Assembly (NCBI GenBank): GCA_016931115.1
Contig: JAFGFM010000102.1
Location: forward strand, 1 to 33,103
Source: Deltaproteobacteria bacterium
Lineage (GTDB): Bacteria; Desulfobacterota; DSM-4660; Desulfatiglandales; HGW-15
DNA: 33,103 nucleotides
Reading direction: 5' to 3'
The notes below the pieces were generated by a model, which was not told the origin of the DNA, ran no database searches, and was given only the letters and a program-made list of their open reading frames with translations. This document shows, piece by piece, positions 3,465 through 33,014 of the stretch. Positions within the stretch are counted from its first letter, which is position 1. Every line of letters begins with the position of its first letter. The translations under genes and the position numbers were made by a program.

Positions 3465-3553
3465 AGATATTTCCTCCCTGAAAAAATAAATCCTCCTACC
3501 TTTATATAATGTCATAAAGATAGGAGGCTTGTGGTGTTCAATATCTCTATTGA

Positions 3554-10627: not shown

Positions 10628-10681
10628 AATTGATTATCACTCAAATACCAGTATTATTTCCGTCAAAAAGGTTGATATCAT

Positions 10682-10807: not shown

Positions 10808-10816
10808 TATTTTACC

Positions 10817-11563: not shown

Positions 11564-11575
11564 ATTCGCTTTGCC

Positions 11576-13786: not shown

Positions 13787-13795
13787 TACCACCTC

Positions 13796-16516: not shown

Positions 16517-17032
16517 TTACTTTTCTATCCCTTCCCTTGCCATTATGCCTTTATTATAATAATGCTTTACCTCTTTCATCTCGGTAACAAGATCTGCTAT
16601 TTCTATAATTCGCGGATCAGCATTTCTTCCGGTTATGATCAGCTCCATCTCATCCGGTTTTTCAGCTATTAATTTAAGCAGGTCATCAACGCTTATCAGT
16701 TTGTAATATGTGGCGATATTAACCTCATCAAGAATAAGCACCTGGTATTTTCCAGAGAGCATGATCTCCCGGACCTCTTTCAGACCCGCCATTGCTGCCT
16801 GAACATCCTCTTCAGTAGGGTCACACTTGATAAAACATCCCCTGCCATACTGCTTTACAGTAATGTGTTCTGACAAAACCTTGAAGGTCTCCTGCTCACT
16901 GTATTTCATGCCCTTTACAAACTGGGCAATATAAACATTAAGCCCTGCGCCATATGCCCTCATGGCAAGCCCAAGTGCTGCTGTTGTTTTACCCTTACCG
17001 TTACCAGTATAAACCTGAATATATCCTTTCAT
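16517..17032 (-). CDS. cobO: Corrinoid adenosyltransferase, CobO/BtuR (CobA) type
   Basis: ATP:co(I)rrinoid adenosyltransferase of 171 residues that adds the upper 5'-deoxyadenosyl ligand. The P-loop GNGKGKTT (10-17) is at the usual N-terminal place. YIAQFVKG, ILDEVNIA, LIITGRNADP and the C-terminal AREGIE are family signatures. GGGGG lies five bases before the ATG. It is the last gene of the long minus-strand transport/assembly unit and would adenosylate imported corrinoids or cobyric acid before CbiB acts. Confidence 0.95.
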   Translation of the reverse strand: MKGYIQVYTGNGKGKTTAALGLAMRAYGAGLNVYIAQFVKGMKYSEQETFKVLSEHITVKQYGRGCFIKCDPTEEDVQAAMAGLKEVREIMLSGKYQVLILDEVNIATYYKLISVDDLLKLIAEKPDEMELIITGRNADPRIIEIADLVTEMKEVKHYYNKGIMAREGIEK

Positions 17033-17069: not shown

Positions 17070-17615
17070 TCAAATCTCTTTCAGTACCAAAGGTAATCCA
17101 GCAAACGTAATGATCACCTTATCTGCTATTCCCGCTACCTTCCGGTTCATTGTACCTGATGCATCACGGTACATCCTTGCAAGTTTATTTTCAGGGACTA
17201 TACCCATGCCCACTTCATTACTCACAAGTACAAGCCTGCCCTTTATACCGGATATCCCTTCAACAAACCTCTCTATTTCTTTATAAACCATATCAACATC
17301 AGATTCATATTTCATATAAAGGTTACTGAGCCATAGAGTGAGACAGTCCAAAAGTATAATTGTTTTATCCCCATCTAATTCTTTGATTTTTTTTACTATG
17401 TCAACACTCTCTTCAACTGTAGTCCACCCGCTGCCGCGCTCCTCCTGGTGTCGTTTTATCCGGTATTCCATTTCATCATCAAATGGCTGGGCCGTGGCAA
17501 GAAAGTACCTGTCACCTTTCATTTTATTACACAGGTCAAGGGCTAGAGAGCTCTTACCGCTCCTCACACCGCCAAGCACGAGCATGCACCCATGCGTAAA
17601 TTCTGTTTTAAACAT
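17070..17615 (-). CDS. cobU: Adenosylcobinamide kinase/guanylyltransferase CobU
   Basis: Bifunctional enzyme that phosphorylates adenosylcobinamide and transfers GMP to it. It has 181 residues from the ATG at 17615, where GAGAGG gives a ribosome site; an in-frame start 105 bp upstream falls inside transposase-derived sequence and is rejected. GGVRSGKS (15-22) is the P-loop, RIKRHQEER carries H55 at the GMP-accepting His position, then W63, DCLTLWLSN and VSNEVGMGIVP. The usual RP after the His region is RG here. The gene begins within the tail of a RAYT transposase remnant. Confidence 0.94.
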   Translation of the reverse strand: MFKTEFTHGCMLVLGGVRSGKSSLALDLCNKMKGDRYFLATAQPFDDEMEYRIKRHQEERGSGWTTVEESVDIVKKIKELDGDKTIILLDCLTLWLSNLYMKYESDVDMVYKEIERFVEGISGIKGRLVLVSNEVGMGIVPENKLARMYRDASGTMNRKVAGIADKVIITFAGLPLVLKEI

Positions 17616-17871
17616 TTTGAATCCTCTCTGTTCCGGGATTTTCCGGATTATATTTATCAAGATGCCATTTTTTCGGATTGTTTGATATGTATTCCCTTGT
17701 TTCTGATAAATCAATCTCATTTCTGATTACATGTTCGTAGTAATTGCGCTGCCAGAGTTTGTCATTGAATGGTTTCCAATTGTTTTGTTTTACGCCTTTG
17801 ATGTAATCATTGGTTGTCATTGTCTTAAACCATTGAAGTATTGCAGAAATTGATGGTTGAAAATCTTTTTC
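17608..17871 (-). pseudogene. C-terminal remnant of a RAYT/IS200-like (Y1) transposase
   Basis: The translated fragment contains WFKTMTTNDYIKGV, then LWQRNYYEHVIRNE and YISNNPKKWHLD, the characteristic C-terminal half of REP-associated tyrosine transposases (Y1_Tnp/TnpA_REP). An internal ATG at 17820 begins only 70 residues, but homologous-looking sequence continues upstream in frame to about 17871, directly against a REP unit that starts at 17873. The N-terminal HUH half is missing, so it should be inactive. The remnant overlaps the first bases of cobU and separates it from cobQ, so it was inserted into or eroded within this operon. Confidence 0.8.
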
Positions 17872-17872
17872 C

Positions 17873-17982
17873 TGTAGGGGCAGACCTGCGTGTCTACCCT
17901 GTTTTTATTTTAATGATTACGATTCATATCCAAATCAGGGTCATAAGAAAATACTGGGCGGACACGCAGGACCGCCCCTACA
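17873..17982. repeat. BIME-like REP pair beside the RAYT remnant
   Basis: TGTAGGGGCAGACCTGCGTGTC starts at 17873 and its inverted partner, GGGCGGACACGCAGG followed by CCGCCCCTACA, ends at 17982. About 55 bp of AT-rich sequence separates the two units. The right-hand unit reaches into the coding end of cobQ: the complement of its CTA supplies the TAG stop codon of that gene. Confidence 0.8.
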
Positions 17983-19480
17983 GGGATAATGCCGATATTA
18001 TCTTCTCCACATCACAATATTTCTCAAAATGATCTGCAAGACGGTCATACTCCCTGAATCTTGCCACCCTGCCCTTTCCTGCTCTTTTCTCTTTGATGCC
18101 TTTTTTGCTCCTTAGTCTGTTTAAAAAATCACCCCTGAAACCAGGTGAATCAAGTATCCCATGCAGATAGGTACCTGCTATTTCAGCATCTCTGAGATAG
18201 CAGCCATCTACAAAACCTTCATTACCTTTTTCCTGCTTCAGCTTTAAAAATGGTATCCCACTGTTATTTATTATCTCTGTCTTACCCATATGGATTTCAT
18301 ATCCCGATACAGGCTTATTATGTTTCAGACTCATTCCTGTGACCTTTCTTACCACCTTGTCTGCCTCAAGGTTAGTTTCAACAGGAAGAAGGTTCAACCC
18401 TGATATCTCCTTACGACTCGACTCAACACCATAGGGATCATATATCCTCCTGCCTAAGATCTGATAACCACCGCATATGCCCAGAACAGCCTTTCCATCA
18501 TCAGCAAATTCCCTTATCCTTTTTTTCCATCCGAGTCTTGAAAGCCATGCTGTATCCTCCATGACATTTTTGGTGCCCGGTATTATCAGGCAGTCATAAG
18601 CGTCAGTCAGATCATTTTTGTTAGAGAGATAATTGAAAACAACATCCTTCTCCATATTCAGTATCTCAAGATCAGTAAAATTGGAGATGGCGGGGAGTCT
18701 TATCACAGCAATATTAACAGTCTTCTTCCCAACAGGTTTCATGGGCAGCTTATCATACTGAACCGCAACAGAATCCTCAGAATCAATCTGTATATCATGA
18801 AAATATGGCACAAGCCCAAGCACCGGTTTACCTGTCTTTTTTTCTATGTATTTTATACCATCATCAAAAAGCGCAGGATCACCCCGGAACTTGTTGATGA
18901 TAAACCCCAGGATCATCCTTTTTTCTTTTTGGGACATAAGCTCATATGTGCCTATTACCTGTGCAAATACACCTCCCCGGTCTATATCGGCGACAAGAAC
19001 ACATTTAGCCTTTGCAGCAGCAGCCATTTGAAGGTTTACCAGATCGTTTTTTTTCAGGTTCATCTCGCAACAGCTTCCAGCCCCTTCCAGAACAACAATG
19101 TCATAACTTTGTGCCAGTATATTATAAGATTCCATCACGCTCTTTCTGAGCATTGGTTTGTATCCATGATAATTTACAGCATCCATCTGGCTGAAGAGCT
19201 TCCCCTGAAGCACTATCTGTGCGCCCAGCGCTGTTGAGGGCTTAAGGAGAACAGGATTCATATGCACGGATGGAAGAAGCCCTGCCGCCTCGGCCTGCAC
19301 CACCTGTGCACGCCCTATCTCACCGCCTTCAACCGTGACATATGAGTTATTGGACATGTTCTGTGCCTTGAATGGCGCTACATTATATCCGCGCCGCTTT
19401 AATATCCTGCAAAATGCAGCAGTTGTTATGGATTTACCAACATCGCTGCCAGTGCCGAGGAACATGAGGGACTTCTTCAA
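17978..19480 (-). CDS. cobQ: Cobyric acid synthase CobQ/CbiP
   Basis: Glutamine-dependent amidotransferase that amidates the corrin side chains b, d, e and g to give adenosylcobyric acid. At 500 residues it is close to Salmonella CbiP. GTGSDVGKS (9-17) is the ATP site, QNMSNNS (40-46) is a family mark, and the class-I glutaminase part has C336 in GICGGYQILG and H440 in GTYLHGI. The start is TTG at 19480: GGAG lies eight bases upstream, while the first ATG (19465) is too far away. The last codons run into a REP unit. Its place between tonB and cobU fits a corrinoid operon. Confidence 0.94.
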   Translation of the reverse strand: MKKSLMFLGTGSDVGKSITTAAFCRILKRRGYNVAPFKAQNMSNNSYVTVEGGEIGRAQVVQAEAAGLLPSVHMNPVLLKPSTALGAQIVLQGKLFSQMDAVNYHGYKPMLRKSVMESYNILAQSYDIVVLEGAGSCCEMNLKKNDLVNLQMAAAAKAKCVLVADIDRGGVFAQVIGTYELMSQKEKRMILGFIINKFRGDPALFDDGIKYIEKKTGKPVLGLVPYFHDIQIDSEDSVAVQYDKLPMKPVGKKTVNIAVIRLPAISNFTDLEILNMEKDVVFNYLSNKNDLTDAYDCLIIPGTKNVMEDTAWLSRLGWKKRIREFADDGKAVLGICGGYQILGRRIYDPYGVESSRKEISGLNLLPVETNLEADKVVRKVTGMSLKHNKPVSGYEIHMGKTEIINNSGIPFLKLKQEKGNEGFVDGCYLRDAEIAGTYLHGILDSPGFRGDFLNRLRSKKGIKEKRAGKGRVARFREYDRLADHFEKYCDVEKIISALSL

Positions 19481-19599: not shown

Positions 19600-20262
19600 T
19601 TATCTTATTTCAAACCTAACTGGCACCTCTACCCACATATCAACCGCTGTATCACCCTTTTTCCCCGGTTCAAAAAGCCACTCCTTTACTGCCTCAAGGG
19701 CTGCATTATCAAGGATATTATACCCGCTTGATTCAAAGAGCCATAGATTGTCTACCCTGCCCTCCTTATTTACCAGAACACTCAGTAGCACTGTGCCCTG
19801 ATAACCCCTTTTCCTGGCCATTTTAGGGTATGGAGGTTCCGGGTTTATCTTATATAGAGGCTCAGCCTCAGTGATAACCTCTGATACAGCCTCTTCAATA
19901 CCAAGCGGTTGAGTATATACTGCTTCATCAACAGCAGATTCAGGATAGTTAACATCCTCTGTGACTATACTGCTTTCTTCAACCTGGGGAGGAGGTTCAA
20001 TACTCTTTTCTTCAACCTTGACTGGTACTGTTATCTTTTTTTCTTCCCTGGGCCTTAATACCTGCTTTTTATTTACCTTTGTAACAGTCTTTTGGGGAGG
20101 TAATTTCTGTGGCACAGGGGGCTTTTTATAGGACATAGTCACAGTAATGGCAGGAGGCATTTTTTCATATATCTTCTTTTCTGTTAACCATGCGGGGTTC
20201 AGGGTGAAGAGCATGGCATGGAACAGGATGGCGACAAAAGCCGCAGCCAGAAGACTCTTCAT
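19600..20262 (-). CDS. tonB: TonB-family energy transducer
   Basis: The 220-residue protein has a single N-terminal membrane anchor (about 4-24), a long Pro/Lys/Glu-rich periplasmic spacer and a TonB C-terminal domain: PEPPYPKMARKRGYQG, VNKEGRV, SSGYNILDNAALEAVKEWLFEP. It would carry energy from ExbBD to the receptors encoded here. Its ATG follows the exbD stop directly (TAGATG), indicating coupled translation. Placement inside the btu/cob unit suggests a TonB dedicated to corrinoid uptake. Confidence 0.9.
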   Translation of the reverse strand: MKSLLAAAFVAILFHAMLFTLNPAWLTEKKIYEKMPPAITVTMSYKKPPVPQKLPPQKTVTKVNKKQVLRPREEKKITVPVKVEEKSIEPPPQVEESSIVTEDVNYPESAVDEAVYTQPLGIEEAVSEVITEAEPLYKINPEPPYPKMARKRGYQGTVLLSVLVNKEGRVDNLWLFESSGYNILDNAALEAVKEWLFEPGKKGDTAVDMWVEVPVRFEIR

Positions 20263-20670
20263 CTACTTTTCCACCTCTGCCTGAAGAGATATCCTTGTCA
20301 GCCCGGCCTTTTTTATCTTATCAAGGACATTGAAAAGTTCCTGGTAAGGAATCTTCCTGTCAGCAAAAAGCAGCACACCAGGGTCTTTTTTATCATGGGT
20401 CATCGTAAAAAGGGTGTCAGTTAATTTATCTATACTGACCATCTGTTTATCTACATATACAACCCCTTTTTCATCAATGGAAACTGACAGGATCAATTGT
20501 TTTTCAGGCTCAGCAATTTCGGACCTGGGAAGATCAAGTTTAAGGCCTCGGTGAACAGCCATTGAAAGCATCGTGTATATGAATACAACAAGGAGCAGGA
20601 ATACCATGTCCATAAGAGGTAATATCTCAACACGGCTTTTCCTGTGGGTAGTAGGAAGTTTTACTTTCAT
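20263..20670 (-). CDS. exbD: ExbD/TolR-family biopolymer transport protein
   Basis: A 135-residue protein with one transmembrane helix (about 18-38) holding an Asp at position 21 (LPLMDMVFLLL), the proton-path residue typical of ExbD. The periplasmic domain ends with ILDKIKKAGLTRISLQAE, also typical. The start overlaps the exbB stop by four bases (ATGA), so exbB-exbD-tonB are translationally coupled. Confidence 0.92.
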   Translation of the reverse strand: MKVKLPTTHRKSRVEILPLMDMVFLLLVVFIYTMLSMAVHRGLKLDLPRSEIAEPEKQLILSVSIDEKGVVYVDKQMVSIDKLTDTLFTMTHDKKDPGVLLFADRKIPYQELFNVLDKIKKAGLTRISLQAEVEK

Positions 20671-21296
20671 TTCACCTGATCCTTTTTATCATCCGCTACC
20701 ACTAATCGCTCATACACAATCTCAAAGCTCGTTGCGTATTTCTCTATCGTCTTTGCTGCCCTATCAATAAGTGAATTGTAATAATTGTAGGGAAAAACCG
20801 TTGCTATGGATATTATAAGACCTGCCGCTGTTGTTATGAGCGCCTCTGCAATACCTCCTGTAACGGCCTGGGGGTTTTCAACGCCAAAGGTGTCCAGCAT
20901 GCTGAACGATTCTATAATCCCAAGGACAGTCCCTAAAATGCCGAGCAGGGGGGCTACAGTTATCATCGTGTCAAGTACACCCATGAACCTTCCCATCCTG
21001 CTCATCTCATCGGCAGCCGATGATTCCATTGCCTTGCTAAGTGAGTATTCCCTGTGAAGTATCCCGCTTATTAAAACCCTTATCACATAATTTTTTGACC
21101 CTGCCGCCTTTACCCTGATGTTTTCCCAGTCTCCCTTTCTGCATGATTCAAGCACCTCATCCAGCAGCCTCTGGTTTCTGCGCATGCCAACCCCTATCCA
21201 GAAGATGGCCCTTTCAATAATCACAGTAAGTGAAATGATAGAACATAACAACAGCGGGTACATGATTGGCCCGCCTTTTATAAAAAATTCAAACAT
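20667..21296 (-). CDS. exbB: ExbB/MotA/TolQ-family proton channel protein
   Basis: Inner-membrane protein of 209 residues with three hydrophobic helices (about 12-32, 110-135, 155-178). TVAPLLGILGTVLGIIESF and GGIAEALITTAAGLIISIATVFPYNYY are the conserved ExbB/TolQ membrane segments. With ExbD it forms the proton-driven motor for TonB. AGGAAA precedes the ATG. A repeat-rich 175-bp gap separates it from btuD. Confidence 0.92.
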   Translation of the reverse strand: MFEFFIKGGPIMYPLLLCSIISLTVIIERAIFWIGVGMRRNQRLLDEVLESCRKGDWENIRVKAAGSKNYVIRVLISGILHREYSLSKAMESSAADEMSRMGRFMGVLDTMITVAPLLGILGTVLGIIESFSMLDTFGVENPQAVTGGIAEALITTAAGLIISIATVFPYNYYNSLIDRAAKTIEKYATSFEIVYERLVVADDKKDQVK

Positions 21297-21471: not shown

Positions 21472-22248
21472 TTACCTCACACTCACCCGCGGCCTGCCTG
21501 ACAGAGGATTCTGATCCACCAGCACAGGGCATTCATAGACATCCTCAATATTTTTTGATGTGATTACCTCTTCAGGCGTGCCTGTCCTGTAAACAGAACC
21601 GTTTTTTAATAAAATGACCCTGTTGCAGTACTGGGAAACAAGATCAATATCGTGGGAGACGATAACCACGGCAAGCCCCTTTTCTTTGCTTAAAGATGAG
21701 ACAAGCCTGAATACCTCCCTTTTGAATTTAAGATCAAGAAAGGATGTAGGTTCATCCAGAAGCATTACCCTTGGTTCCTGTGCTAGTGCCCTTGCAATAA
21801 GCACCCTTTGTCTTTCACCGCCTGAAAGGTCATGTATTGACCGCTCTGCAAATTCAAGTGCATGGGTTGATCTCAATGCATCCATAGCAACAGTGAGATC
21901 ATTTTTGTTCTCAAACTGCATGGCTTTGAGATGCGGGAATCTGCCCATCATAACGACCTCAATACATGAGAAGCTGAACCTGAAATGCTGTTCCTGTGAA
22001 ACCATTGCCGCCTCACGGGCAAGCTCTTTTCTGCTTAAACGGTCATATGGCTTTCCATTTATCTCCAGCTCTCCCCTTTGAGGCGCAAGCACCCCATCCA
22101 TTAGCCTTAAAAGTGTGCTCTTGCCTGAGCCGTTGGGGCCAAGTATTCCAATGATCTCCCCCGGATAAAGATCAAGGCTGATATCATCAAGCACCTGTTT
22201 ATCCCCATATCTGAAGCCTATATTACAGATTTTCAGGATCGGCTCCAT
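21472..22248 (-). CDS. btuD: Corrinoid/iron-siderophore-type ABC transporter ATPase
   Basis: A 258-residue ATPase of the FecE/BtuD/FepC class. Walker A GPNGSGKST (about 38-46), signature LSGGERQRVLIARALAQEP, Walker B VMLLDEPTSFLDL and the switch VIVSHDI are all intact. The start overlaps the permease gene by 16 bp. The genetic context of riboswitch-led corrinoid genes supports B12 import rather than siderophores. Confidence 0.9.
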   Translation of the reverse strand: MEPILKICNIGFRYGDKQVLDDISLDLYPGEIIGILGPNGSGKSTLLRLMDGVLAPQRGELEINGKPYDRLSRKELAREAAMVSQEQHFRFSFSCIEVVMMGRFPHLKAMQFENKNDLTVAMDALRSTHALEFAERSIHDLSGGERQRVLIARALAQEPRVMLLDEPTSFLDLKFKREVFRLVSSLSKEKGLAVVIVSHDIDLVSQYCNRVILLKNGSVYRTGTPEEVITSKNIEDVYECPVLVDQNPLSGRPRVSVR

Positions 22249-23270
22249 TGGCTACCTCTTTTTCTTAAAAGTATTAAAAAGAAAGGCGCACCAAGAAAAG
22301 CGGTTATAACGCCTACAGGGAGTTCACTTGGAGATATGATTGTGCGGGCGAGTGTATCTGCTGCAATAAGAAAGATTGCCCCGCCTATGGAGGCTACAGG
22401 GATAAGCATCCGGTGATCTGACCTGAATGCCATTCTGGCAAGGTGCGGCACAATAAGCCCGACAAAACCTATCAGGCCAGAAAAGGCTACAACAAGGCCC
22501 ATTATTAGTGATATTATCAAGAGCCCTATCTTTTTAGTCCTGTCAACATTTACACCAAGCTGTGATGCTATTTCATCGCCTGTTGTTATGATGTTGAGAT
22601 GCTTTGCATAGCTAAAGATTATTATTGAGGCAAGCAGTAAAAATGGGGCAATAATAAGAAGCTGGGTGTACTGGCTCTGACTCAGATCACCATAAAGCCA
22701 GAAAAGCATGGTGTGGAGACGGTCATTGGCAGAGGTGGAGATGAAAAACATGATTATAGCAGTAAAAAAGGCATTAACTATAACCCCGGTAAGGAGTATG
22801 GTTGATGACTCCATGCCCATCTTTCTTGCGCCCAGCGACATTACAAGATAGATGGTTAGTAATCCTCCCATAAATGCCATAACCGGTACACCAAGGCTGA
22901 AACTGAGTCCAAAGGTGATTGCTAGAACTGCCCCGAAAGCAGAGCCGCTCGATACCCCTAAGATAAATGGATCGGCAAGCGGGTTACGCAATAAGGCCTG
23001 AAACGTGACACCGCCAAGCGAAAGGGCAAAACCCACAAGCCCTGCAAGTATTATTCTTGGAAGCCTGATCTTGAATATGATCAATCTAACAGGATCATCC
23101 TGTGTAACTGCACCTGTTATGAGACCTATCACCTGTTTAAATGTCACATCAGCCGTTCCAAGCACCAGCGAAAGCACAATAACAATAACAAGCACGATGC
23201 ACATTATTGCAGTTACAGAGATAACCTTTCCCGGTGTCAGTATGCCTTTAATTTTTATTTCATTATTCAT
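22233..23270 (-). CDS. btuC: FecCD/BtuC-type ABC transporter permease
   Basis: Inner-membrane permease of the BtuC/FecCD family, about 345 residues with roughly ten helices. Marks include LRLPRIILA-like KIRLPRIILAGLVGFALS, GVTFQALLRNPLADPFILGVSSGSAFGA and GFVGLIVPHLARM, the coupling-helix region that contacts the ATPase. The ATG at 23270 is preferred; a TTG 15 bp upstream is also in frame and neither has a clear ribosome site. It lies behind btuF, separated by an AT-rich inverted repeat. Confidence 0.9.
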   Translation of the reverse strand: MNNEIKIKGILTPGKVISVTAIMCIVLVIVIVLSLVLGTADVTFKQVIGLITGAVTQDDPVRLIIFKIRLPRIILAGLVGFALSLGGVTFQALLRNPLADPFILGVSSGSAFGAVLAITFGLSFSLGVPVMAFMGGLLTIYLVMSLGARKMGMESSTILLTGVIVNAFFTAIIMFFISTSANDRLHTMLFWLYGDLSQSQYTQLLIIAPFLLLASIIIFSYAKHLNIITTGDEIASQLGVNVDRTKKIGLLIISLIMGLVVAFSGLIGFVGLIVPHLARMAFRSDHRMLIPVASIGGAIFLIAADTLARTIISPSELPVGVITAFLGAPFFLILLRKRGSQWSRS

Positions 23271-23294
23271 AAATATTTCATTCAAGGTTACAGA

Positions 23295-23336
23295 TTCAAG
23301 ATTAATTTTTCTTAATTTTGAATTTTCAATCTTGAA
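23295..23336. repeat. AT-rich inverted repeat TTCAAGATT/AATCTTGAA
   Basis: Perfect 9-bp arms at 23295-23303 and 23328-23336, with several AATTTTGAATTTTC-like echoes around them. The repeat contains the btuF stop codon and encodes the last residues of BtuF (NSRLKIQN). Confidence 0.6.
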
Positions 23337-24244
23337 TTTTGAATTAATTGTTTATTAATCATTTCCCAATCCACCTCCGGATGTATCATCCTTGCCATTG
23401 CCTCTATCCCATCTAATATCCTTGGGGATGGCCTGTCTATAAGATCCGAATCAATAAGATACACCCGACCGTTTTTTGCAGCAGGTATTGAAGTCCATTT
23501 GAGCCACTCCTGCCTTGCCTTTTCAAACTCCCCGCCCCTGTCCATTGAAGAGATGATAAGCACATCAGGCTTGCGCCTGATCAATTCTTCAATACTGATC
23601 CTTGGATAATTAATAGCTGAATCAGCAGTCATATTGATACCACCGGCAATGGATATAATATCCTGATGAAAGGTGTTTTTATTTACACTCATAATGGGAT
23701 GCAGGTTGATCTGCAAAAAAACAAGGGGCTTTTCCTTTTGTTTAAGGGCCTCCCTGATCCGGTCAAGCCTCTCTGTAAGGCCTTTTGCAAGCTGGTTAGC
23801 CTTTTCTTCCACACCGCACAGGCTGCCTATTATCCGGACAGTCTCAATAACCTCAACAACATTTCTGGGGTCTACAATATATGTGGGTATTTTTGCCTGC
23901 TCAAGCATATCCACAATACCGGGGTTATTGCCATCTTTTGTACCTATAACAAGATCAGGGTTAAGTGTTATTATTCTCTCGATATTAAGATCATGGTAAC
24001 CACCTACCTGGGGTTTTTCAAGGGCCTCTGGAGGATAGTAGCTGAAGTTTGTTACGCCGGCCACCCTCTCACCAAGACCCAGATAATATAAGATCTCTGT
24101 AAGACTGGGGGCAAGCGGTATAATGCGGACAGGGGTATGTTCAATGATAACCTCTCTATCAACTGCATCCTTAAAGCCCCTGCCATATAAAGGGGCTGTT
24201 GATCCGCAAACAATTAATAAAAATAAAATAATAAAATATTTCAT
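23312..24244 (-). CDS. btuF: BtuF-like periplasmic corrinoid-binding protein
   Basis: ABC-transporter substrate-binding protein of class III (FecB/BtuF type), 310 residues. It has an N-terminal signal segment (1-22), VRIIPLAPSLTEILYYLGLGERVAGVT (38-64), VGGYHDLNIERIITLNPDLVIGT and DRPSPRILDGIEAMARMIHP near the end. The ATG overlaps the stop of the btuF-cbiZ fusion by one base (TAATG). The last eight residues are encoded by repeat sequence and probably lie outside the fold. Unlike the neighbouring fusion, it has no CbiZ domain, so it should be the delivery protein for BtuCD. Confidence 0.9.
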   Translation of the reverse strand: MKYFIILFLLIVCGSTAPLYGRGFKDAVDREVIIEHTPVRIIPLAPSLTEILYYLGLGERVAGVTNFSYYPPEALEKPQVGGYHDLNIERIITLNPDLVIGTKDGNNPGIVDMLEQAKIPTYIVDPRNVVEVIETVRIIGSLCGVEEKANQLAKGLTERLDRIREALKQKEKPLVFLQINLHPIMSVNKNTFHQDIISIAGGINMTADSAINYPRISIEELIRRKPDVLIISSMDRGGEFEKARQEWLKWTSIPAAKNGRVYLIDSDLIDRPSPRILDGIEAMARMIHPEVDWEMINKQLIQNSRLKIQN

Positions 24245-26283
24245 TAATCTGTTGTTTCCTTATTACATATACCCGTTAGCAGGGTATTCAATGCCAGTTT
24301 TATTACCAGGGGGATATTATCATCTGCTGTATAATTTTCAATTTCTGATAATTCATTACCTGAGATATCACTCGCCAGAGTGATGCACCATTTCCTAAAC
24401 CGGGTAAGGTCCCTTATCATGCCTTTTTCATAATCATCACTGATACTAAAGGAAGATGCAATAAAAGCCTCATATTCAGGTTCAAGCAGCAGTTTTTCGA
24501 GACTGTCTGCGATATCTCCTTTTTCCATCCGGTAATCTCTATCAGATAACATCTCCTCACTAATATTTATCCTTCGATCTCTCAGCCTCTCGAATATATC
24601 CCGCTCTGCTCTTATCCCGTTCTGTTTATATATGGCCTCTTTAACGCCCCTGTTAACCGCCTTTGCCATGAGCTCACCAAGCTTTGTATGGCCGCCTGTC
24701 ACATCAAGTATCTTTTCGCCTGAACCCTGAACAACAACAATATTGTCTGTCCCCGTGCCTGTGGCCTGAAATTTGGGGCTGTAGCTGCTCCTTATATCCA
24801 GATCCTGAAGCGCAGCACTTTTTGCCTCTGTAGCAGTTATTATCACACCTGCCATCGCCCTTTCTGTCAGTTTCATGTTGGGAAGAAGCAGAATATTTAT
24901 TGTTCCAGGCTCATAATAGCCGCCTTCATCTACTGACATCCTCATGGCATTGGACTTAACACCTGCGGTTATAACCGCATATACTGCCATTTCCCGGTAA
25001 TCTTCCCTGACAATAGCAACATTATCCACATCCGCTCCGGTTAAAAGAAAGCTGGTTTCATTTTCGGACTTTCCCAGCACCCTTAACACCTTTTCTCGCA
25101 TGCCTTTAAGGCCGTCATTATCAGCCACACTCCAGCATGAAAGAGGGGCGTAATGGTTTCCGATCGTTTTTATATTTCCCCTCACACCTTCAAGTGTAGA
25201 GATGATATTTATAGGCTCCTTGAACTCAATAATCAACGATTTATTAGTAAAATCATATAGATTACTCGTATCAATCCTTATATCATTTACATAGTCCAGC
25301 GTCAGATCAAGTTTCTTTGAACTTACAACCTGTTCAGGCAAAACAAGGTTTTCTTTCCTTGCATATTCCTCCCTGTAAATATCCGCTGAGAGCCACTCCA
25401 CAAAATACCCTGTATTTGTGGAGGCCCTGCAGGTAAGTTCGCACGGGTAAAAATACACACCATAGTTTTTTATTGCATCCACATCCCTTAATTCAGGGTC
25501 AGTTAATAACCTGTTGATCCATCGCCTGTCATTTTCACAGCCGTATATTACATGCGGGTTAAACGCCTTTATCTCCTTTTTATCAATTGGTATTACGTGG
25601 CCATTCATGCCTGTTATTCGCGGGATACCTCCGGCAAGGGTTATAAACTCATTCTGAAATGAATCATCTCCTGGTGTCATAAGGGTGTTCCCACCCATGA
25701 TACGCATCACCCTCTTTCTTTTTTCAGCAGGGATACGCCCGGCCTTTTTTATGATGGTTTCCAGATACCTTTTATTTTCCCTGATAATATTTTCAGCTTC
25801 TCTCTCCCTGTGAAATATCTTGCCAATAATTTCAATATGTCTGAAACCCTCTTTAATAGAGCCTGTTTCAAGGTCGATAAGTATGACACTGCTCTTACTG
25901 AATCTTTCTAAAACACCTTTCTGGATCTTATTATAAAAAATCAGATCAGGTTTAAGCCTTGCAACCCGATCAAGATCAGGGTTAACAAATCCTCCTACTG
26001 TTTCAATGCATGCTGATTTATCAGAAAAGTTATCGTGAATAGTTTTTGCCTTTATCTTTTCCCCTGCGCCCACCTTTACTATTATCTCAGTAATGGAAGG
26101 AACAAGGGAAACAACCGATACAGGCTCTTTTGTTATAGAAATATCCCGGCCACTGCTATCCCTGAAACATACGGGATAGCAGTAACCTGTCTTAAGGGAG
26201 GCAGTAATTACGAACAGAACAATTGCCAGGCAAGCAATATATTTCTGTTGTACCGGGATATGTAAAACCTTTTTAATACTCAT
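24244..26283 (-). CDS. Exported BtuF-CbiZ fusion (corrinoid-binding domain plus adenosylcobinamide amidohydrolase), copy 1
   Basis: The protein has 679 residues. Residues 1-35 form a hydrophobic export signal. About 45-310 is a class III binding-protein domain (VVSLVPSITEIIVKVGAGEKI, VGGFVNPDLDRVARLKPDLI, MTPGDDSFQNEFITLAGGIP). About 325-555 is CbiZ: LLTGADVDNVAIV (413-425), a VITAGVKSNAMR segment, TEAKSAALQDLDIRS (485-499), ATGTGTDNIVVVQG (507-520) and TGGHTKLGELMAKAV. CbiZ hydrolyses adenosylcobinamide to cobyric acid. Residues 556-679 form an unassigned C-terminal region conserved in copy 2. A CELTC motif (281-285) and YGC (247-249) are also shared. The start lies inside the btuB 3' end (11-bp overlap). 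Export of a cobamide-cleaving enzyme would mean remodelling outside the cytoplasm. Confidence 0.88.
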   Translation of the reverse strand: MSIKKVLHIPVQQKYIACLAIVLFVITASLKTGYCYPVCFRDSSGRDISITKEPVSVVSLVPSITEIIVKVGAGEKIKAKTIHDNFSDKSACIETVGGFVNPDLDRVARLKPDLIFYNKIQKGVLERFSKSSVILIDLETGSIKEGFRHIEIIGKIFHREREAENIIRENKRYLETIIKKAGRIPAEKRKRVMRIMGGNTLMTPGDDSFQNEFITLAGGIPRITGMNGHVIPIDKKEIKAFNPHVIYGCENDRRWINRLLTDPELRDVDAIKNYGVYFYPCELTCRASTNTGYFVEWLSADIYREEYARKENLVLPEQVVSSKKLDLTLDYVNDIRIDTSNLYDFTNKSLIIEFKEPINIISTLEGVRGNIKTIGNHYAPLSCWSVADNDGLKGMREKVLRVLGKSENETSFLLTGADVDNVAIVREDYREMAVYAVITAGVKSNAMRMSVDEGGYYEPGTINILLLPNMKLTERAMAGVIITATEAKSAALQDLDIRSSYSPKFQATGTGTDNIVVVQGSGEKILDVTGGHTKLGELMAKAVNRGVKEAIYKQNGIRAERDIFERLRDRRINISEEMLSDRDYRMEKGDIADSLEKLLLEPEYEAFIASSFSISDDYEKGMIRDLTRFRKWCITLASDISGNELSEIENYTADDNIPLVIKLALNTLLTGICNKETTD

Positions 26284-28342
26284 ATGCGATGCTTAAAAAC
26301 ATGGATCTACCTGCTCCAGGGTAATAACCCATTGAAGTCACAGAGGTTGACTGATTCCTGAAACTCTCTGTGTATGTATCATACTCCTCATCAAACAGAT
26401 TGGAGCAGTTTAATGAGAGCAGCCAGTGTTCATAAATACGCTGATTGATATTGACATCAACTGTATAGTAGGATTCAAGCATAACATCCGGGTTCACATC
26501 AGTGTCAAGGGCATATGAGCCGGGCCTCTTGCCGGTATACCTGAGTGCAGCAGATACACCAAGGCCATTTTCATTAAAGTAATTTGCCCCTAACTTAAGG
26601 TAATCATCAGCAGTATAGCGCGCCTGTCTTGTTACACCACCAACCTGCTCCTCTTTGGCATCAGAATAGGTATAATTAAGATTCAGGTTGACACTCTCGG
26701 TTACAGAAAAATTTACCCCTGCCTCATAACCTTCACCTGTAAATTTATCCAGGTTCTGAGGTGTGTAAAAATAGTTGATATCAGGCACCCATCTTATTTT
26801 GTCATTAATGTCCCATTTAAAATAGGTCAGGTTAAAGGAGAGTTTATTGTCAATAAAGGCCTGCTCAATCCCTGCATCCATATGTTTTCCTGTTTCAGGG
26901 CGCAGATCGGTATTTCCCTGAGCCCCCATGCCCCAGCCCCAGTCTTCAAGAGGCCAGAAGAGGTCGTTAGGCGTTGGCGCATTATAATGTTTGCCATAAT
27001 TCATCTTTATTGCTGTATCCTTATATGGGTTTATTATAACGCCATAGCGTGGCACATATTTTCTCCCAAACTCAGAATGATCAGTTAGTCTTAACCCTGC
27101 AATCATCTTAAAATAGTCACATGCCCTGTACTGACCTTCACCATAATATCCCTTTGTATCAAGGTGCTGAGAGGCTCCTGAAGGACCTGATGTAGTGCCA
27201 TTTTCATTGAGAGTGATAGTTGAATTTTCCCAGTCATACCTCTTATATTCTGCCCCAAACAGAATTTTTAGATCATCAACAGGTTCAATATCCATATTAG
27301 CCTCAAGGGTAAAAACATCATTGGTAACCCATGAATCACTTCCAACAATCACTGGTACAGGCTCTTCCCCTTCATAATTCATGCTGTTATATCTATTAAG
27401 GTTAAAATTTTCCATATCCAGATAACTGGCCTTAAAATTAATGCCCGCCTTCTCAAATGGCCTGCCCTTAATGCTGAGAGCAGCTGACATATTCTCATCG
27501 CCCTGTCGGTTCAGCAGGTTTGATGCCTCGCCATCATAAAGCTTTGTAGTACCAACATAAAAATCTGCTGTGCCTGCTGGAGGCCTTACACCGGGTCTGC
27601 CCATTTCACGATCTACATAATCAGCATAAAGGCTTACATCAAGCAGATCATCCTTTTCAAACACGAGGTTCAGGCTGACATCCTTATGGTCCAGATCAGA
27701 ATTACTCCTGAAACCATCACTCTCCTGTTTCCCTGCGGTAAAATAATATCCGAAGTTCTCAGTAATAAACATGCCATTCTCGGCAGAGAGTTCAAGGGTG
27801 CTGTTTGTACCATACCCTGCCTGGGCATTAAGGGTTAATGTATCTTTTTCAGGCCTTTTGGTTATTATATTTACAATACCGCCCATTGCGCTTGTACCAT
27901 AAAGCAGAGAACCTGCGCCCTTAACAACCTCTACCCTTTCTATATTATTCATGGGCAGGCCATTCAGGTTGGCGCTTCCAAGAGATGGGGAGTTTACAAC
28001 AACCCCATTAACAAGCACCTGAGTCCCGTCTGCGCCCATGCCCCTTATATGTATTTCCTCTGTTGCTCCGCCATAATCACCGCGTGTCCTTAAATCAATT
28101 CCCTGCTCATTGGAAAGAAGCTGACCAACTGTTTTTGCTCCGGTATCCTCTATATCAATAGAGTCCTTTACGATTACTGAATTTGGTATCTCTTTAATGC
28201 TTTCCTCTGTTTTGGTTGCTGTAACAACTACCTCATCCATTCTTTTAGGGTTTGTCTGTTTTAAATCTTTATCCTGGCTGAAACCATTAAAGGTTAATCC
28301 CAGTACTGAAATAATAACAAGGGGGATAATTCTCCTTACCAT
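26273..28342 (-). CDS. btuB: TonB-dependent corrinoid receptor (BtuB-like)
   Basis: About 689 residues from the ATG at 28342, chosen because GGAG lies six bases upstream; three further in-frame ATGs lie up to 18 bp earlier. A signal peptide (ending GFSQD), the TonB box MDEVVVTATK, and a plug with IHIRGMGADGTQVLVNGVVVN and VEVVKGAGSLLYGTSAMGGIVNIITKRP are visible; the barrel ends YEY. It is the first gene behind cobalamin riboswitch 2 and its terminator, and heads the btuF-cbiZ/btuF/btuC/btuD/exbBD/tonB/cobQUO unit, so corrinoids are the likely ligand. Confidence 0.92.
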   Translation of the reverse strand: MVRRIIPLVIISVLGLTFNGFSQDKDLKQTNPKRMDEVVVTATKTEESIKEIPNSVIVKDSIDIEDTGAKTVGQLLSNEQGIDLRTRGDYGGATEEIHIRGMGADGTQVLVNGVVVNSPSLGSANLNGLPMNNIERVEVVKGAGSLLYGTSAMGGIVNIITKRPEKDTLTLNAQAGYGTNSTLELSAENGMFITENFGYYFTAGKQESDGFRSNSDLDHKDVSLNLVFEKDDLLDVSLYADYVDREMGRPGVRPPAGTADFYVGTTKLYDGEASNLLNRQGDENMSAALSIKGRPFEKAGINFKASYLDMENFNLNRYNSMNYEGEEPVPVIVGSDSWVTNDVFTLEANMDIEPVDDLKILFGAEYKRYDWENSTITLNENGTTSGPSGASQHLDTKGYYGEGQYRACDYFKMIAGLRLTDHSEFGRKYVPRYGVIINPYKDTAIKMNYGKHYNAPTPNDLFWPLEDWGWGMGAQGNTDLRPETGKHMDAGIEQAFIDNKLSFNLTYFKWDINDKIRWVPDINYFYTPQNLDKFTGEGYEAGVNFSVTESVNLNLNYTYSDAKEEQVGGVTRQARYTADDYLKLGANYFNENGLGVSAALRYTGKRPGSYALDTDVNPDVMLESYYTVDVNINQRIYEHWLLSLNCSNLFDEEYDTYTESFRNQSTSVTSMGYYPGAGRSMFLSIAYEY

Positions 28343-28378
28343 TTTCATCTCCATCAACATTAAAATAAATATGTGATC

Positions 28379-28418
28379 AAAAAAAATCCCCGGATCGAAT
28401 TTAATCGATCCGGGGATT
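28379..28418 (-). terminator. Intrinsic terminator after cobalamin riboswitch 2
   Basis: A perfect 14-bp stem AATCCCCGGATCGA (28385-28398) with its complement (28405-28418) and a 6-base loop is followed on the minus strand by eight T. It lies between the aptamer and btuB, and is preceded by GGGC as in the divergent leader. This fits transcription attenuation by B12. Confidence 0.9.
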
Positions 28419-28476
28419 GCCCTTTTTTATCCTCTAGATCAGTAGTGTAATGCCACATTCCGCGATGGCCAATACT

Positions 28477-28656
28477 TGATTCCGGCAGGTCTTCTGACTT
28501 CCCCCCCTGTTTAACGGCCTTCCCATCATATGACAGTGGCGTTAAAAAGGTTAAGCAGGTTCTCTTTTCACAAAGAAAAGAGAGGGGTCACAGCGGCGGG
28601 TCCGTTCCCGACTTTAACGGGATTCCCTTGAAAGCTCATTAAGAGCACCGAAATCA
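28477..28656 (-). promoter_or_regulatory. Cobalamin riboswitch 2 (btuB leader)
   Basis: The minus strand shows GGTGCTC, AGGGAATCCCG..CGGGAACGG, CCCGCCGCTGTGACCCC and a full B12 box, GGGGAAGTCAGAAGACCTGCC (28484-28504 region). The ends pair as TGATTTC with GGAATCA (P1). A 12-bp-class peripheral hairpin (CTCTTTTC..GAAAAGAG, about 28560-28583) forms one arm. Confidence 0.93.
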
Positions 28657-28662
28657 TGAGCA

Positions 28663-28691
28663 TTTTTATGAAATATCATAACAAGAGTCAA
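28663..28691 (-). promoter_or_regulatory. Promoter for the btuB unit
   Basis: Minus-strand TTGACT (28686-28691) and TAAAAA (28663-28668) are 17 bp apart, placing the transcript start just before riboswitch 2. The -10 match is moderate (four of six). Confidence 0.5.
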
Positions 28692-28719
28692 GTTATTTAA
28701 AGAAAATTATTTTTTACCC

Positions 28720-28749
28720 TTGACATATTTTTTATTAATCATGTATTAC
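28720..28749 (+). promoter_or_regulatory. Promoter for the second receptor/btuF-cbiZ unit
   Basis: A perfect TTGACA (28720-28725) lies 18 bp from TATTAC (28744-28749). It points away from the btuB promoter; the two -35 boxes are 28 bp apart in a shared AT-rich control region. The predicted start lies at the beginning of riboswitch 3. Confidence 0.55.
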
Positions 28750-28755
28750 TGCGCC

Positions 28756-28929
28756 ATTCAGGTGCTGCAAAGCACAATAGGGAACCCTGTTTGAGTCAGG
28801 GACGGGCCCGCCGCTGTAACCCCGCCTTTTTATTAAAAAGGGAACCCTTTCAGCCATTGTGTACCACTGTTTTTATTATAAACGGGAAGGTCGCTGAAAG
28901 GGCGGGGAAGTCAGAAGACCTGCCTGGAT
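28756..28929 (+). promoter_or_regulatory. Cobalamin riboswitch 3 (second receptor leader)
   Basis: The plus strand shows CAGGTGCTGC..AGCAC, ATAGGGAACCC, GGGCCCGCCGCTGTAACCCC and a full B12 box, GGGGAAGTCAGAAGACCTGCC (about 28904-28924). P1 closes through ATTCAGG (28756-28762) with CCTGGAT (28923-28929). A peripheral stem pairs CCCGCC (about 28821) with GGCGGG. Confidence 0.94.
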
Positions 28930-28994
28930 ACATAAGACTAAAACCGCGTGGACGGCGGCTGGTCTGCATATTTTTCTGTGGATTTAAAAAGGGC

Positions 28995-29032
28995 AATCCC
29001 GGATCTGGTTAACAGGTCCGGGATTTTTTTTT
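28995..29032 (+). terminator. Intrinsic terminator after cobalamin riboswitch 3
   Basis: A 13-bp stem (AATCCCGGATCTG at 28995-29007 with CAGGTCCGGGATT at 29013-29025, one G-T pair) is followed by a run of nine T. It lies about 60 bp before the receptor ATG. Stem sequence and the preceding GGGC resemble the terminator of the divergent btuB leader. Confidence 0.9.
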
Positions 29033-29092
29033 GAAAAAATCATGGTGTTTGGAAGGATACATCAATCTCATGTGGAGAGAGTTCGGATTACT

Positions 29093-30976
29093 ATGGCTAT
29101 AAACATTGTGAAAATCTTTTGTACAGCATTATCTGTTTTTATTATTTTAACACCATCCGGCTTTGCACAACATCATCAGAGTGAGAAAGATGTCTACACA
29201 CTGGATGAGGTGGAAGTAACCTCAAGGAAACTTTCTGAATATGTCAAAAACAACCCCCAGAATATCATTGAGATGAATAAAGAAGAGATCAGCGAAAGAA
29301 ATTTTCTTGAGGTGGGGGAGGCCATAAGCTCTATGCCTGGCGTGGATGTATCCCAGAGTTCAGGCAGTTCGGGCGCAAGGATATCTATCAGAGGAGGTGG
29401 CGGCTCAGGCACTGTTCTTGTCATGATAGATGGGAAACCTCTGAATTCCGCACAGTATGGCGGGGTTAACCTTGGAAGCATCCCTGTTGAAATAATAGAG
29501 AGAATAACCCTTTTTAAACCGCCTGTGCCTGTCTGGCTTGGTCCTGGAGGGGCCGGAGGGGTAATAAACATAACTACTTTAAACGCAGGTAAACGGCTCC
29601 TGAAAAAGGAGAAAAATATCGCCCGCTTAAAATTGAATGGCGGATCATATGGCGCAGCAGAGCTTAATGCCAGTTACATGATAAACATGGAAAAAAGCAA
29701 AGTGCTTCTTGCAGCCAGCGCGAGCCATATGGATGGGAAACGGCCCAACAGCGATGATGACTCACAGAACGCAAGTATCAAATACCAGCATGAAGGCAGT
29801 TCAGGGAAAAGGTATGACCTGAATGGGAGTTACTACCATTCCAGTCACGGCTCTTCAGGCCCTCTGGATAATCCGACTCCTGATGCAAGGCAGCGCTATC
29901 AGAAGGCTTCTCTTGATCTTCAGGCAAACGGCTTTCTGAACAGCAAAAAGGAGCTCTCTCTTAAAACATATATAGATCTGGAAAATCTTAAGGATAAATC
30001 CCAGATGGGTTTTGAATCAACGCTTGATGTATTGAAATCAGGGTTAAACCTCGAGACCGTCTGGGATTCCAGCGAAAAAAGATTATCAAAACGACTGGGT
30101 GTATTGTTTGAGACAAACAGGGTGGATCACAATCTTTCAGGTGATCATCACAGAGAGAAGGCATCCATGCATTTACAGCAGGACAGAGAATTTGATTTTG
30201 TAAATGCAACCCTGGGGCTCAGGGGTGATTATACAAATGACTTCGGGGTTTTTCCTGCTGTGAGCACAGGTATCAGCTTTCCGATTAACACTGATACAAT
30301 AATCAAGACAACAGCCGGATACTCGGTAAACATACCCACATTTAATCAGCTCTATCAGCCCAGCCACGGTTCCATTGACCTGGTAAGGGGCAACCCTGAT
30401 CTTGATGAAGAAAAGGTTTATGCCTTTGACCTTAGCCTTACCCACAATTTTGACAAAAACACTGTATTGAATACATCCATTTTCAGGACAGAGACGAAAA
30501 ACCTGATTACACATATAAGGGGGGATGACCTTATTTACAGGCCCATTAATATTTCCAGTGCTTATAAGCAGGGTGTTGAGGTGGCTTTTAAATTACCCGT
30601 GACACAGATGATTGCAATGGATATGAGCTATATCTACCAGGAGACCGAAAACGAAGAAACAGGATACGACCTTCCCTATTCGCCTGACCATACATTCAAG
30701 GTAACAGGAATTATCACCCTGCCATCAAAAACAAAGGTTGAAGCAACTGTTAAGGGTAACAGCCGCCAGTACAGCAGCCCCGGGACTCTTCAGGAACAGG
30801 TGCTCGCGAGTTATGCTGCTATGAACATAAAAATTATACATCCTGTAACAATATTAAACTATGGTGGTGAGGTTTATCTCCATATGGATAATCTCCTCGA
30901 CACTGCTTTTGAAACCCACGCGGGATACCCTGATGATGGCTTCAGATTTATTGCCGGGCTTAATATTAATTTTTAA
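29093..30976 (+). CDS. TonB-dependent corrinoid receptor, second copy
   Basis: The protein has 627 residues from the ATG at 29093, where the signal peptide begins (MAINIVKIFC... ending GFAQ). GGAGAGA lies 12 bp upstream; an in-frame ATG at 29042 lacks any ribosome site and would put charged residues before the signal. The TonB box is near TLDEVEVTSR (36-45); the plug has MPGVDVSQSSGSSGARISIRGGGG, VMIDGKPLN and a GGAGGVINITT segment; the barrel ends LNINF. It is clearly diverged from the btuB at 26273-28342. Control by its own cobalamin riboswitch supports a corrinoid ligand, perhaps a different cobamide or precursor. Confidence 0.9.
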   Translation: MAINIVKIFCTALSVFIILTPSGFAQHHQSEKDVYTLDEVEVTSRKLSEYVKNNPQNIIEMNKEEISERNFLEVGEAISSMPGVDVSQSSGSSGARISIRGGGGSGTVLVMIDGKPLNSAQYGGVNLGSIPVEIIERITLFKPPVPVWLGPGGAGGVINITTLNAGKRLLKKEKNIARLKLNGGSYGAAELNASYMINMEKSKVLLAASASHMDGKRPNSDDDSQNASIKYQHEGSSGKRYDLNGSYYHSSHGSSGPLDNPTPDARQRYQKASLDLQANGFLNSKKELSLKTYIDLENLKDKSQMGFESTLDVLKSGLNLETVWDSSEKRLSKRLGVLFETNRVDHNLSGDHHREKASMHLQQDREFDFVNATLGLRGDYTNDFGVFPAVSTGISFPINTDTIIKTTAGYSVNIPTFNQLYQPSHGSIDLVRGNPDLDEEKVYAFDLSLTHNFDKNTVLNTSIFRTETKNLITHIRGDDLIYRPINISSAYKQGVEVAFKLPVTQMIAMDMSYIYQETENEETGYDLPYSPDHTFKVTGIITLPSKTKVEATVKGNSRQYSSPGTLQEQVLASYAAMNIKIIHPVTILNYGGEVYLHMDNLLDTAFETHAGYPDDGFRFIAGLNINF

Positions 30977-30995
30977 TGGAAGGAAAAATATTTAA

Positions 30996-33014
30996 ATGAA
31001 ATTTCCTAAGCATATAAATAAAAGTCTTATTATTTTCTTTTGCATTATATTTCTGATTCCAGTCCTTTCTTTTGGCTCTGCACCTGTAAAAATAACTGAC
31101 TCAGCCGGGAATAATATAACCTTTTCACAAGAACCGGAAAGGGTTGTATCCCTTCTGCCCTACATAACTGAAATGCTCTATAAATTCGGTGAAGGCAAAA
31201 GTATTAAAGGGATCACAAAGCAGGACCTTGCCTTGAATACAGCATCTGAGGCAAAAAATGTAGGAAGTTACTTTTCTCCTGACCTCGATTCAATCATCGA
31301 TTGCAATCCTGACCTTGTTATAGCCACACCTTCCCAAAAAAAGATCATTGACTATTATAAAAACAAACAGTGCAAAGTTATGATCCTTGAGGTTAAGAAA
31401 ATCGATGATGCATTTAACCAGATGGAGATGATGGGCAGCGTATTCAACTGCCAGTCTGAGGCAAAAAAGGTGATAGAGGGTAACCGTGAAAAGATCGCCT
31501 TTGTAAGGGCGCGGGCTGATAAAATCCCTCCTGAAAAAAGATTACGTGTTGCACGTGTTATGGCAGGGGGTGAAATATCATGCCCTGGTGACGACTCATT
31601 TCAGGCAGAGATGATAAAGGCCTGCGGAGGGATGCCCCTGAAGTCAGGCAGAAATGGTTTTGGTGTCCAGGTAAGTCTCAAGGAGTGGCAGGATTTCAAT
31701 CCCCAGTTTATATATGGCTGTAACGATAATGAAAAGGCTGTGCGGGAGCTTATAAACAGGGATGGCTGGAAGGATGTTGATGCGATAAAAAATAGCTCTA
31801 TATCCATGTTCCCCTGTGAACTCACATGCCAGGTGTCTACACGCATAGGGGATTTTATACAATACCTGGCCGCAACCATTTATCTTGAAACATTTGCTGA
31901 CTTTTCCAAAGCGGTCACAGAAGATAAAGTTCTTGAACAGACACCTGTTCAGCTTGATATCTCCTATGTCAAAAAGGCAGAGATTGTAAGGCACCGTGTG
32001 GCTGATGCAGAGTATAAATCTGTTGTGCTTTCATTTAACGATTTACAGGATATAGCCTCGACCTTTGATGGATATCTCACAGATGTCAAAGGGGCCGCCA
32101 ATACATATGTTCCCATGCATGCAAGCCTTGGTCAGATGGCATTCGGTGTTACAGGCGCCAAAGAGGCAGTAAAGAGGAACCTCGGGTTTTCAGGTTCAGG
32201 TTTTACAACCCTTATGACCGGTGCGGATATGGACAACCTTTCCATACAGAAAAGGAGCTTTAAAGACCTTGAGGTGACAGCCCTCGTAACAGCAGGTGTA
32301 AGGGGAAACGCCCAGAGGGCATCACAGGATGAAGGGTCATATTACAGCCACGGCACCATAAATATTATTGTCCTTACAAACCGGAGATTGACTCCACAGG
32401 CCATGCTAAGGACCATCATCACTGCAACAGAGGCCAAGAGCGCTGCCTTAATGGATTTGGATATAAGAAGCACATACAGCGGGTTAAAAAATGGCGCAAC
32501 AGGCACAGGGACCGATAATGTCCTGGTGGTAAGGGGAAACGGCCCGGTTGAAGAATATGCAGGCGGCCACACAAAGGCCGGGGAGCTCATAGCAAAGGCG
32601 GTTCATGCCGGTGTTACAGAAGCCATCTTAAAACAGAATGGCATCAGGCCATCAAGGGACATATTCCAGAAATTAAGGGAGCGGGGCCTGACCATTGATA
32701 AAATAGCAGAAATATTTTCCAATGGAGCAGATAAAGAAAGGGTAATGAACCAGATTGAAAAACTGCTCACTCAGCCCTGTTATTCATCCTTTATAGAATC
32801 GGCCTTTGCCATAAGCGATGGATATGAAATGGGTCATATCAAAGAGGTCACCACCTTTGATGATACATGTGTTTGTGTAATCAGAAGATTAACCGGCTCA
32901 ACAAATATCAGTGCTAAAGATATCCCTGTAAATAATCAGATGCCTGTTATTTTATCAAAGGCCTTTGGTTCGCTTGTTTACGGCATCAAGCAGACAGGAA
33001 AAAGGGGTCAGTAA
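30996..33014 (+). CDS. Exported BtuF-CbiZ fusion, copy 2
   Basis: The protein has 672 residues: export signal (1-27), binding-protein domain (about 35-305; VVSLLPYITEMLYKFGEG, VGSYFSPDLDSIIDCNPDLVI, CPGDDSFQAEMIKACGG), CbiZ domain (about 320-548; LMTGADMDNLSIQ, VTAGVRGNAQR, TEAKSAALMDLDIRS at 478-492, ATGTGTDNVLVVRG at 501-514, AGGHTKAGELIAKAV) and a C-terminal region (549-672) like that of copy 1. CELTC (274-278) and YGC (240-242) are conserved. AAGGA lies 12 bases before the ATG, 19 bp after the receptor stop. The two copies differ throughout, so the duplication is old. With the riboswitch-controlled receptor it forms a two-gene uptake/cleavage module mirroring the btuB side. Confidence 0.88.
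   Translation: MKFPKHINKSLIIFFCIIFLIPVLSFGSAPVKITDSAGNNITFSQEPERVVSLLPYITEMLYKFGEGKSIKGITKQDLALNTASEAKNVGSYFSPDLDSIIDCNPDLVIATPSQKKIIDYYKNKQCKVMILEVKKIDDAFNQMEMMGSVFNCQSEAKKVIEGNREKIAFVRARADKIPPEKRLRVARVMAGGEISCPGDDSFQAEMIKACGGMPLKSGRNGFGVQVSLKEWQDFNPQFIYGCNDNEKAVRELINRDGWKDVDAIKNSSISMFPCELTCQVSTRIGDFIQYLAATIYLETFADFSKAVTEDKVLEQTPVQLDISYVKKAEIVRHRVADAEYKSVVLSFNDLQDIASTFDGYLTDVKGAANTYVPMHASLGQMAFGVTGAKEAVKRNLGFSGSGFTTLMTGADMDNLSIQKRSFKDLEVTALVTAGVRGNAQRASQDEGSYYSHGTINIIVLTNRRLTPQAMLRTIITATEAKSAALMDLDIRSTYSGLKNGATGTGTDNVLVVRGNGPVEEYAGGHTKAGELIAKAVHAGVTEAILKQNGIRPSRDIFQKLRERGLTIDKIAEIFSNGADKERVMNQIEKLLTQPCYSSFIESAFAISDGYEMGHIKEVTTFDDTCVCVIRRLTGSTNISAKDIPVNNQMPVILSKAFGSLVYGIKQTGKRGQ

Follow-up and report, generated by a model that had tools for sequence, protein, structure and literature searches.

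Two proteins encoded in the 33,103-nucleotide stretch of DNA analysed here (the window), which comes from a sulfate-reducer-type bacterium, have a design that recurs in about a hundred relatives, and their sequences indicate that in these bacteria the stripping of foreign B12 forms probably takes place outside the inner membrane. Each protein carries a binding domain (SBP) followed by a CbiZ amidohydrolase domain behind an export-type N-terminus. We think it likely, with some reservation, that such a fusion is an exported, corrinoid-capturing amidohydrolase: corrinoids would be captured and cut in the periplasm, BtuF would ferry the product, and the cobamide would be rebuilt inside. CbiZ and BtuF are both known families, and what would be new is a periplasmic site for the CbiZ reaction. 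The fusion thereby offers a concrete, testable protein for periplasmic cobamide remodelling.

Two divergent operons under cobalamin riboswitches

The window is the entire contig C143 of a draft genome of 5.18 Mb (98.5% complete), and its right third consists of two divergent operons. The leftward operon, on the minus strand, begins with a cobalamin riboswitch (28467..28667; RF00174, 89 bits) and an intrinsic terminator (28385..28418; −26.6 kcal/mol, folding z −5.5), followed by a TonB-dependent receptor (26273..28360) and fusion 1 (P0001, 679 aa; 24244..26283). Downstream lie genes for a stand-alone BtuF with both BtuCD-docking glutamates (23312..24244), the BtuC permease (22233..23285), the BtuD ATPase (21472..22248), ExbB-type and ExbD-type energisers (20667..21296 and 20263..20670), a TonB-type protein (19600..20262), the cobyric acid synthase CobQ/CbiP (17978..19480), CobU (17070..17720) and the corrinoid adenosyltransferase CobO/BtuR (16517..17032). 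The rightward operon, on the plus strand, holds a second riboswitch (28743..28941; RF00174, 87.5 bits), a terminator (28995..29025; −25.4 kcal/mol, folding z −5.9), a second TonB-dependent receptor (29042..30976) and fusion 2 (P0002, 672 aa; 30996..33014). Both receptors are assigned to the B12 type by their best NCBIfam model, TonB-B12 TIGR01779 (E 2e-56 ahead of fusion 1 and 6e-34 ahead of fusion 2), with scores under that model's curated cut-off.

The two riboswitches stand back to back, and each terminator lies between its riboswitch and the receptor gene. The RF00174 matches bear out the claim of the initial annotation that each fusion follows a TonB receptor under its own cobalamin riboswitch, and riboswitches also lie upstream of the fusion loci of relatives. 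These arrangements support co-regulation of the fusions with uptake genes; we propose that the riboswitch-terminator switches would open when cobalamin is short. The fusion 1 gene shares 11 bases with the receptor gene and, at its stop codon, one base with the BtuF gene, which suggests translational coupling.

A nucleotide-loop operon lies farther left of the transport operon, also on the minus strand, and encodes CobT (11576..12625), CobS (10817..11563), a CobD-type aminotransferase identified by class and position (9551..10627) and CbiB (8549..9544). All six enzymes that had been listed for the rebuilding of a cobamide (CobO, CobD, CbiB, CobU, CobT and CobS) are therefore encoded in the window, together with CobQ/CbiP. 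Two markers of corrin-ring synthesis, CbiD and CbiC, are encoded in the genome as well. The organism is therefore probably a cobamide producer with corrin of its own making, in which the fusion system would serve salvage or remodelling.

Two other parts of the window deserve mention. A TrpD-like phosphoribosyltransferase and a zinc alcohol dehydrogenase are encoded at 12653-14815, between a third cobalamin riboswitch match (15004-15132) and CobT; the same pair is also close to CobT in another locus (L029), and it possibly carries out a lower-ligand step. At 1686-3515, a molybdopterin-oxidoreductase-like stretch is joined to a tetrapyrrole methylase domain in one ORF; its neighbours are a third TonB receptor gene at 3554-5557 and one for a CcsB-like protein at 6404-7141.

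Architecture, export and the binding domain

Both fusions consist of a signal peptide, an SBP domain, a CbiZ domain and a helical C-terminal region. The expected succession of PF01497 (Peripla_BP_2) and PF01955 was obtained in each. In fusion 1 the SBP domain spans residues 57-280 (25444..26115, minus strand; E 4.6e-18) and the CbiZ domain residues 353-547 (24643..25227, minus strand; E 7.6e-52, profile positions 1-191 of 191); in fusion 2 they lie at 31143..31799 (plus strand; E 2.3e-21) and 32061..32615 (plus strand; E 1e-51, profile positions 12-191 of 191). The full-length PF01955 match reaches 176 bits against a curated cut-off of 27. The two proteins are 40% identical across 639 residues, the C-terminal region included, and in a tree of the fusions fusion 2 pairs only with the second copy of Desulfobacteraceae Eth-SRB2 (support 1.0). 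The identity and the separate placement mark the window copies as diverged paralogues, and the earlier description of two diverged proteins of 679 and 672 residues, each with an export signal, binding domain, complete CbiZ domain and common C-terminal region, is confirmed. The genome encodes no CbiZ besides these two.

The argument for export is a contrast between fused and stand-alone CbiZ, since hydrophobicity is weak evidence by itself. Signal peptides were judged by hydrophobicity, charge and cleavage pattern alone, and in these loci, which are rich in transporters, the hydrophobicity cut also admits 49% of the other long ORFs. At the start of both window fusions a basic n-region precedes a hydrophobic stretch (KD13 3.04 in fusion 1, 3.35 in fusion 2). 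The survey of signal-peptide-bearing BtuF-CbiZ fusions that the initial annotation had called for, made with profiles of the three parts run across the fetched loci, finds the order SBP, CbiZ, C-terminal region in about 100 proteins. A hydrophobic stretch precedes the SBP domain in all 97 with a readable N-terminus (KD13 at least 2.0 in 95) and is often followed by an AxA-like site, whereas in the stand-alone CbiZ proteins of the phylum the start coincides with the domain or lies close to it, and none has an export-type N-terminus there. In an apparent exception, L095, the hydrophobic stretch lies well upstream of the likely start.

In three contigs (L048, L058 and L063) one polypeptide holds the SBP, CbiZ and the C-terminal region and continues into another SBP, which is BtuF-like. 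The L063 protein is complete with its signal peptide (9609-12608), and the L048 and L058 versions are cut at the N-terminus. In all three the frame runs into a second SBP that has both docking glutamates and no second signal peptide. Because BtuF works only in the periplasm, a CbiZ domain that stands ahead of BtuF in one polypeptide should be periplasmic too. Known CbiZ is treated as cytoplasmic, and this, together with the leniency of the hydrophobicity cut, would fit an enzyme whose N-terminal stretch does not function as a signal peptide; the uniform difference from stand-alone CbiZ, the fused second BtuF and the periplasmic fold of the SBP make such a cytoplasmic location very unlikely. 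The architecture and predicted export of the fusions are thus well supported by comparison.

The binding domain itself differs from BtuF in ways that bear on its role. Its fold is that of a class III SBP (E. coli BtuF 1n2z: Z 23.3, rmsd 2.8, 243 residues), but it mostly lacks the docking glutamates, has three invariant cysteines and carries an attached enzyme domain. Both glutamates are present in 33 of 34 stand-alone BtuF proteins and in all three second SBPs, compared with 15 of 97 fusions, and both window copies have Asp and Lys at these positions. In E. coli BtuF the corresponding residues are Glu72 and Glu202, which dock on BtuC. The label 'BtuF-type' therefore stands for the Peripla_BP_2 fold and does not extend to a BtuF that docks on BtuCD. 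With the docking contacts mostly gone from the fused SBP, it is probably the separate BtuF, and not the fusion, that passes the product to BtuCD. The three cysteines (C249, C281 and C285 in fusion 1) are kept in 97, 97 and 96 of 97 fusions and lie within or just past the fusion 1 SBP domain. They are absent from BtuF, whose pocket-lining loop (TSDWFERA in E. coli) is aligned with two of them. These cysteines could form a disulfide or ligate cobalt.

The CbiZ domain and the C-terminal region

Conservation strongly supports an intact CbiZ core, as had been claimed. When fusions and stand-alone CbiZ are aligned (89 rows), 22 residues prove invariant. Across 99 fusions and stand-alone CbiZ, Thr415, Thr439, Gly441, Asn445, Arg448 and Thr461 are invariant or nearly so, as are, in fusions and stand-alone proteins alike, Glu486, Lys488, Ser499, the ATGTGTD motif, His532 and Gly536. 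Both window copies have these residues and nearly all of the broader conserved core, as does the plasmid-borne CbiZ of Dehalococcoides mccartyi, to which copy 1 is 44% identical. The exceptions are in fusion 2, which retains Thr454 (the equivalent of Thr461) and carries Glu458Ser and His377Thr in P0001 numbering; its Eth-SRB2 tree partner likewise lacks Glu458. Compared with archaeal, Rhodobacter and Dehalococcoides members of PF01955, the fusions have the complete domain and conserved core but are exported, place CbiZ behind a binding domain and show changes in some motifs that are conserved in stand-alone CbiZ (HQCEP-type). The Dehalococcoides plasmid, pDhc6 (L125), is small and encodes a reductive dehalogenase besides CbiZ.

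We also considered that the CbiZ domain might be a second, non-catalytic corrinoid-binding domain, in which case the fusion would be a periplasmic chaperone between the TonB receptor and BtuF. The strongly changed SBP, the loss of Glu458 and His377 from copy 2 and the altered stand-alone-type motifs are compatible with such a role, but the invariance or near-invariance of Thr461, Asn445, Arg448, Glu486, Lys488, ATGTGTD and His532 would be unusual for a dead enzyme, and we regard a purely binding function as improbable.

Structure prediction points to a candidate nucleophile for the favoured, catalytic reading. A first full-length model resolved the SBP and not the CbiZ domain, which was then modelled by itself from 89 sequences (pLDDT 90.9, pTM 0.88). 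The resulting model matches the Ntn amidohydrolase fold of DmpA, BapA, ThnT, NylC, Nyl50 and ornithine acetyltransferase (Z 11-14; for the DmpA/ThnT/NylC/Nyl50 enzymes Z 12-14, about 180-200 residues aligned, rmsd 3.3-5.7); the next fold, an unrelated one, scores 7.1. Enzymes of the DmpA/ThnT/NylC type act mostly on amide bonds, and self-cleavage exposes their Ser or Thr nucleophile. In the model residues 443-459 form a low-confidence loop, and Thr461 (24901-24903, minus strand) opens a strand directly behind it, where a DmpA-type nucleophile would be expected; this suggests, as a lead, that Thr461 of fusion 1 and Thr454 of fusion 2 are the predicted nucleophiles. Comparison of CbiZ with an S58 profile built from only three members gave no significant score and did not confirm this assignment, and a PDB profile search with the alignment of CbiZ and C-terminal region returned chance matches only.

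The C-terminal region of about 130 residues is helical, common to both window copies and matched by no Pfam family. Its description as unassigned holds in that sense; the region is not wholly isolated, since a weak alignment (hhalign E 6e-4) links it to the C-terminal part of stand-alone CbiZ. Stand-alone CbiZ proteins of the phylum (L094-L106 and others) have a C-terminal region of about 150 residues that is also without assignment. CbiS (NF038002, CbiZ plus alpha-ribazole phosphatase) shows a similar succession of CbiZ and a helical C-terminal region, and its model covers residues 350-626; however, the window fusions score 99.4 and 89.2 bits against its curated cut-off of 250. To our knowledge, CbiS has neither an SBP nor a signal peptide. 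A PgpA/CobZ phosphatase identity for the C-terminal region, hinted at by the CbiS model, found no support: profile comparison with the single PgpA sequence of the genome showed no similarity (E 0.66), and the region has no Pfam match.

Proposed pathway and distribution

We propose that the TonB receptor would bring corrinoids into the periplasm, where the modified SBP, with its three-cysteine pocket, would capture them. The tethered CbiZ domain would then cut the amide bond beside the aminopropanol linker, releasing a cobyric-acid-type corrinoid. Stand-alone BtuF would take up this product and dock on BtuCD for its import, and CobO, CbiB, CobD, CobU, CobT and CobS would rebuild the organism's own cobamide in the cytoplasm.

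The weak points of this model are the substrate and its upper ligand. Published CbiZ work reportedly used adenosylated substrates, whereas adenosylation, by CobO with ATP, is cytoplasmic. Rhodobacter sphaeroides CbiZ is also selective, cutting pseudocobalamin and not cobalamin (PMC7733943). CbiZ has so far been treated as intracellular, where an issue is how cells spare their own cofactor. With the reaction placed beyond the inner membrane, foreign corrinoids would be kept apart from the cell's own without substrate selectivity, and freedom from the need to spare the cell's cofactor may account for the altered CbiZ motifs of the fusions.

A periplasmic, active fusion might instead salvage cobinamide or other incomplete corrinoids, with no lower-ligand remodelling. 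CbiZ was originally described as a cobinamide salvage enzyme (PMC3541065), and such salvage uses the same neighbouring genes. On the other hand, the CobU encoded here salvages cobinamide directly, which would make cutting the linker wasteful for that substrate, and activity on pseudocobalamin is documented for bacterial CbiZ (PMC7733943). That cobinamide or another incomplete corrinoid is the natural substrate seems unlikely to us, if less so than a non-catalytic role.

Parts of the remodelling scheme have precedents. Coupling of CbiZ to uptake has already been suggested (PMC7733943), and CbiZ adjoining transporters is already known (PMC8620254, PMC4285132). CbiR of Akkermansia likewise starts cobamide remodelling and is sometimes close to transport genes (PMC7733943), but it is of the AP-endonuclease-2 type, unrelated to CbiZ, and acts on another bond. 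Our literature search, which did not include the primary CbiZ papers, found no exported or BtuF-fused CbiZ, and an earlier mention is possible.

A genome scan recovered 191 related loci. The best 80 of the 191 carry the fusion, almost all of them in Desulfobacterota, and most align with the query across nearly its whole length; carriers among these 80 include Desulfonema magnum, Desulfosarcina widdelii, Desulfoluna and strain NaphS2. No relatives of the fusion were found on viral contigs. We put forward more tentatively, as a reading we find plausible without quite being persuaded of it, that many Desulfobacterota remodel cobamides in the periplasm, where a cysteine-containing trap would feed a Thr-nucleophile, possibly self-processing CbiZ and a separate BtuF would import the stripped corrin. 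On this reading remodelling would start ahead of transport across the inner membrane, and BtuCD would see a uniform product. If so, widespread sediment bacteria could compete for several corrinoid forms. Within the phylum CbiZ occurs in 80 of 395 genomes; 52 of its 88 CbiZ matches (tallied from the table) lie in frames of at least 600 aa, and all such frames that were fetched are fusions. At the level of the order, a full-length fusion occurs in 20 of 85 genomes, and in another two the copy is broken or lies at a contig end. The recurrent neighbours of the fusions are a TonB receptor, BtuFCD and ExbBD-TonB.
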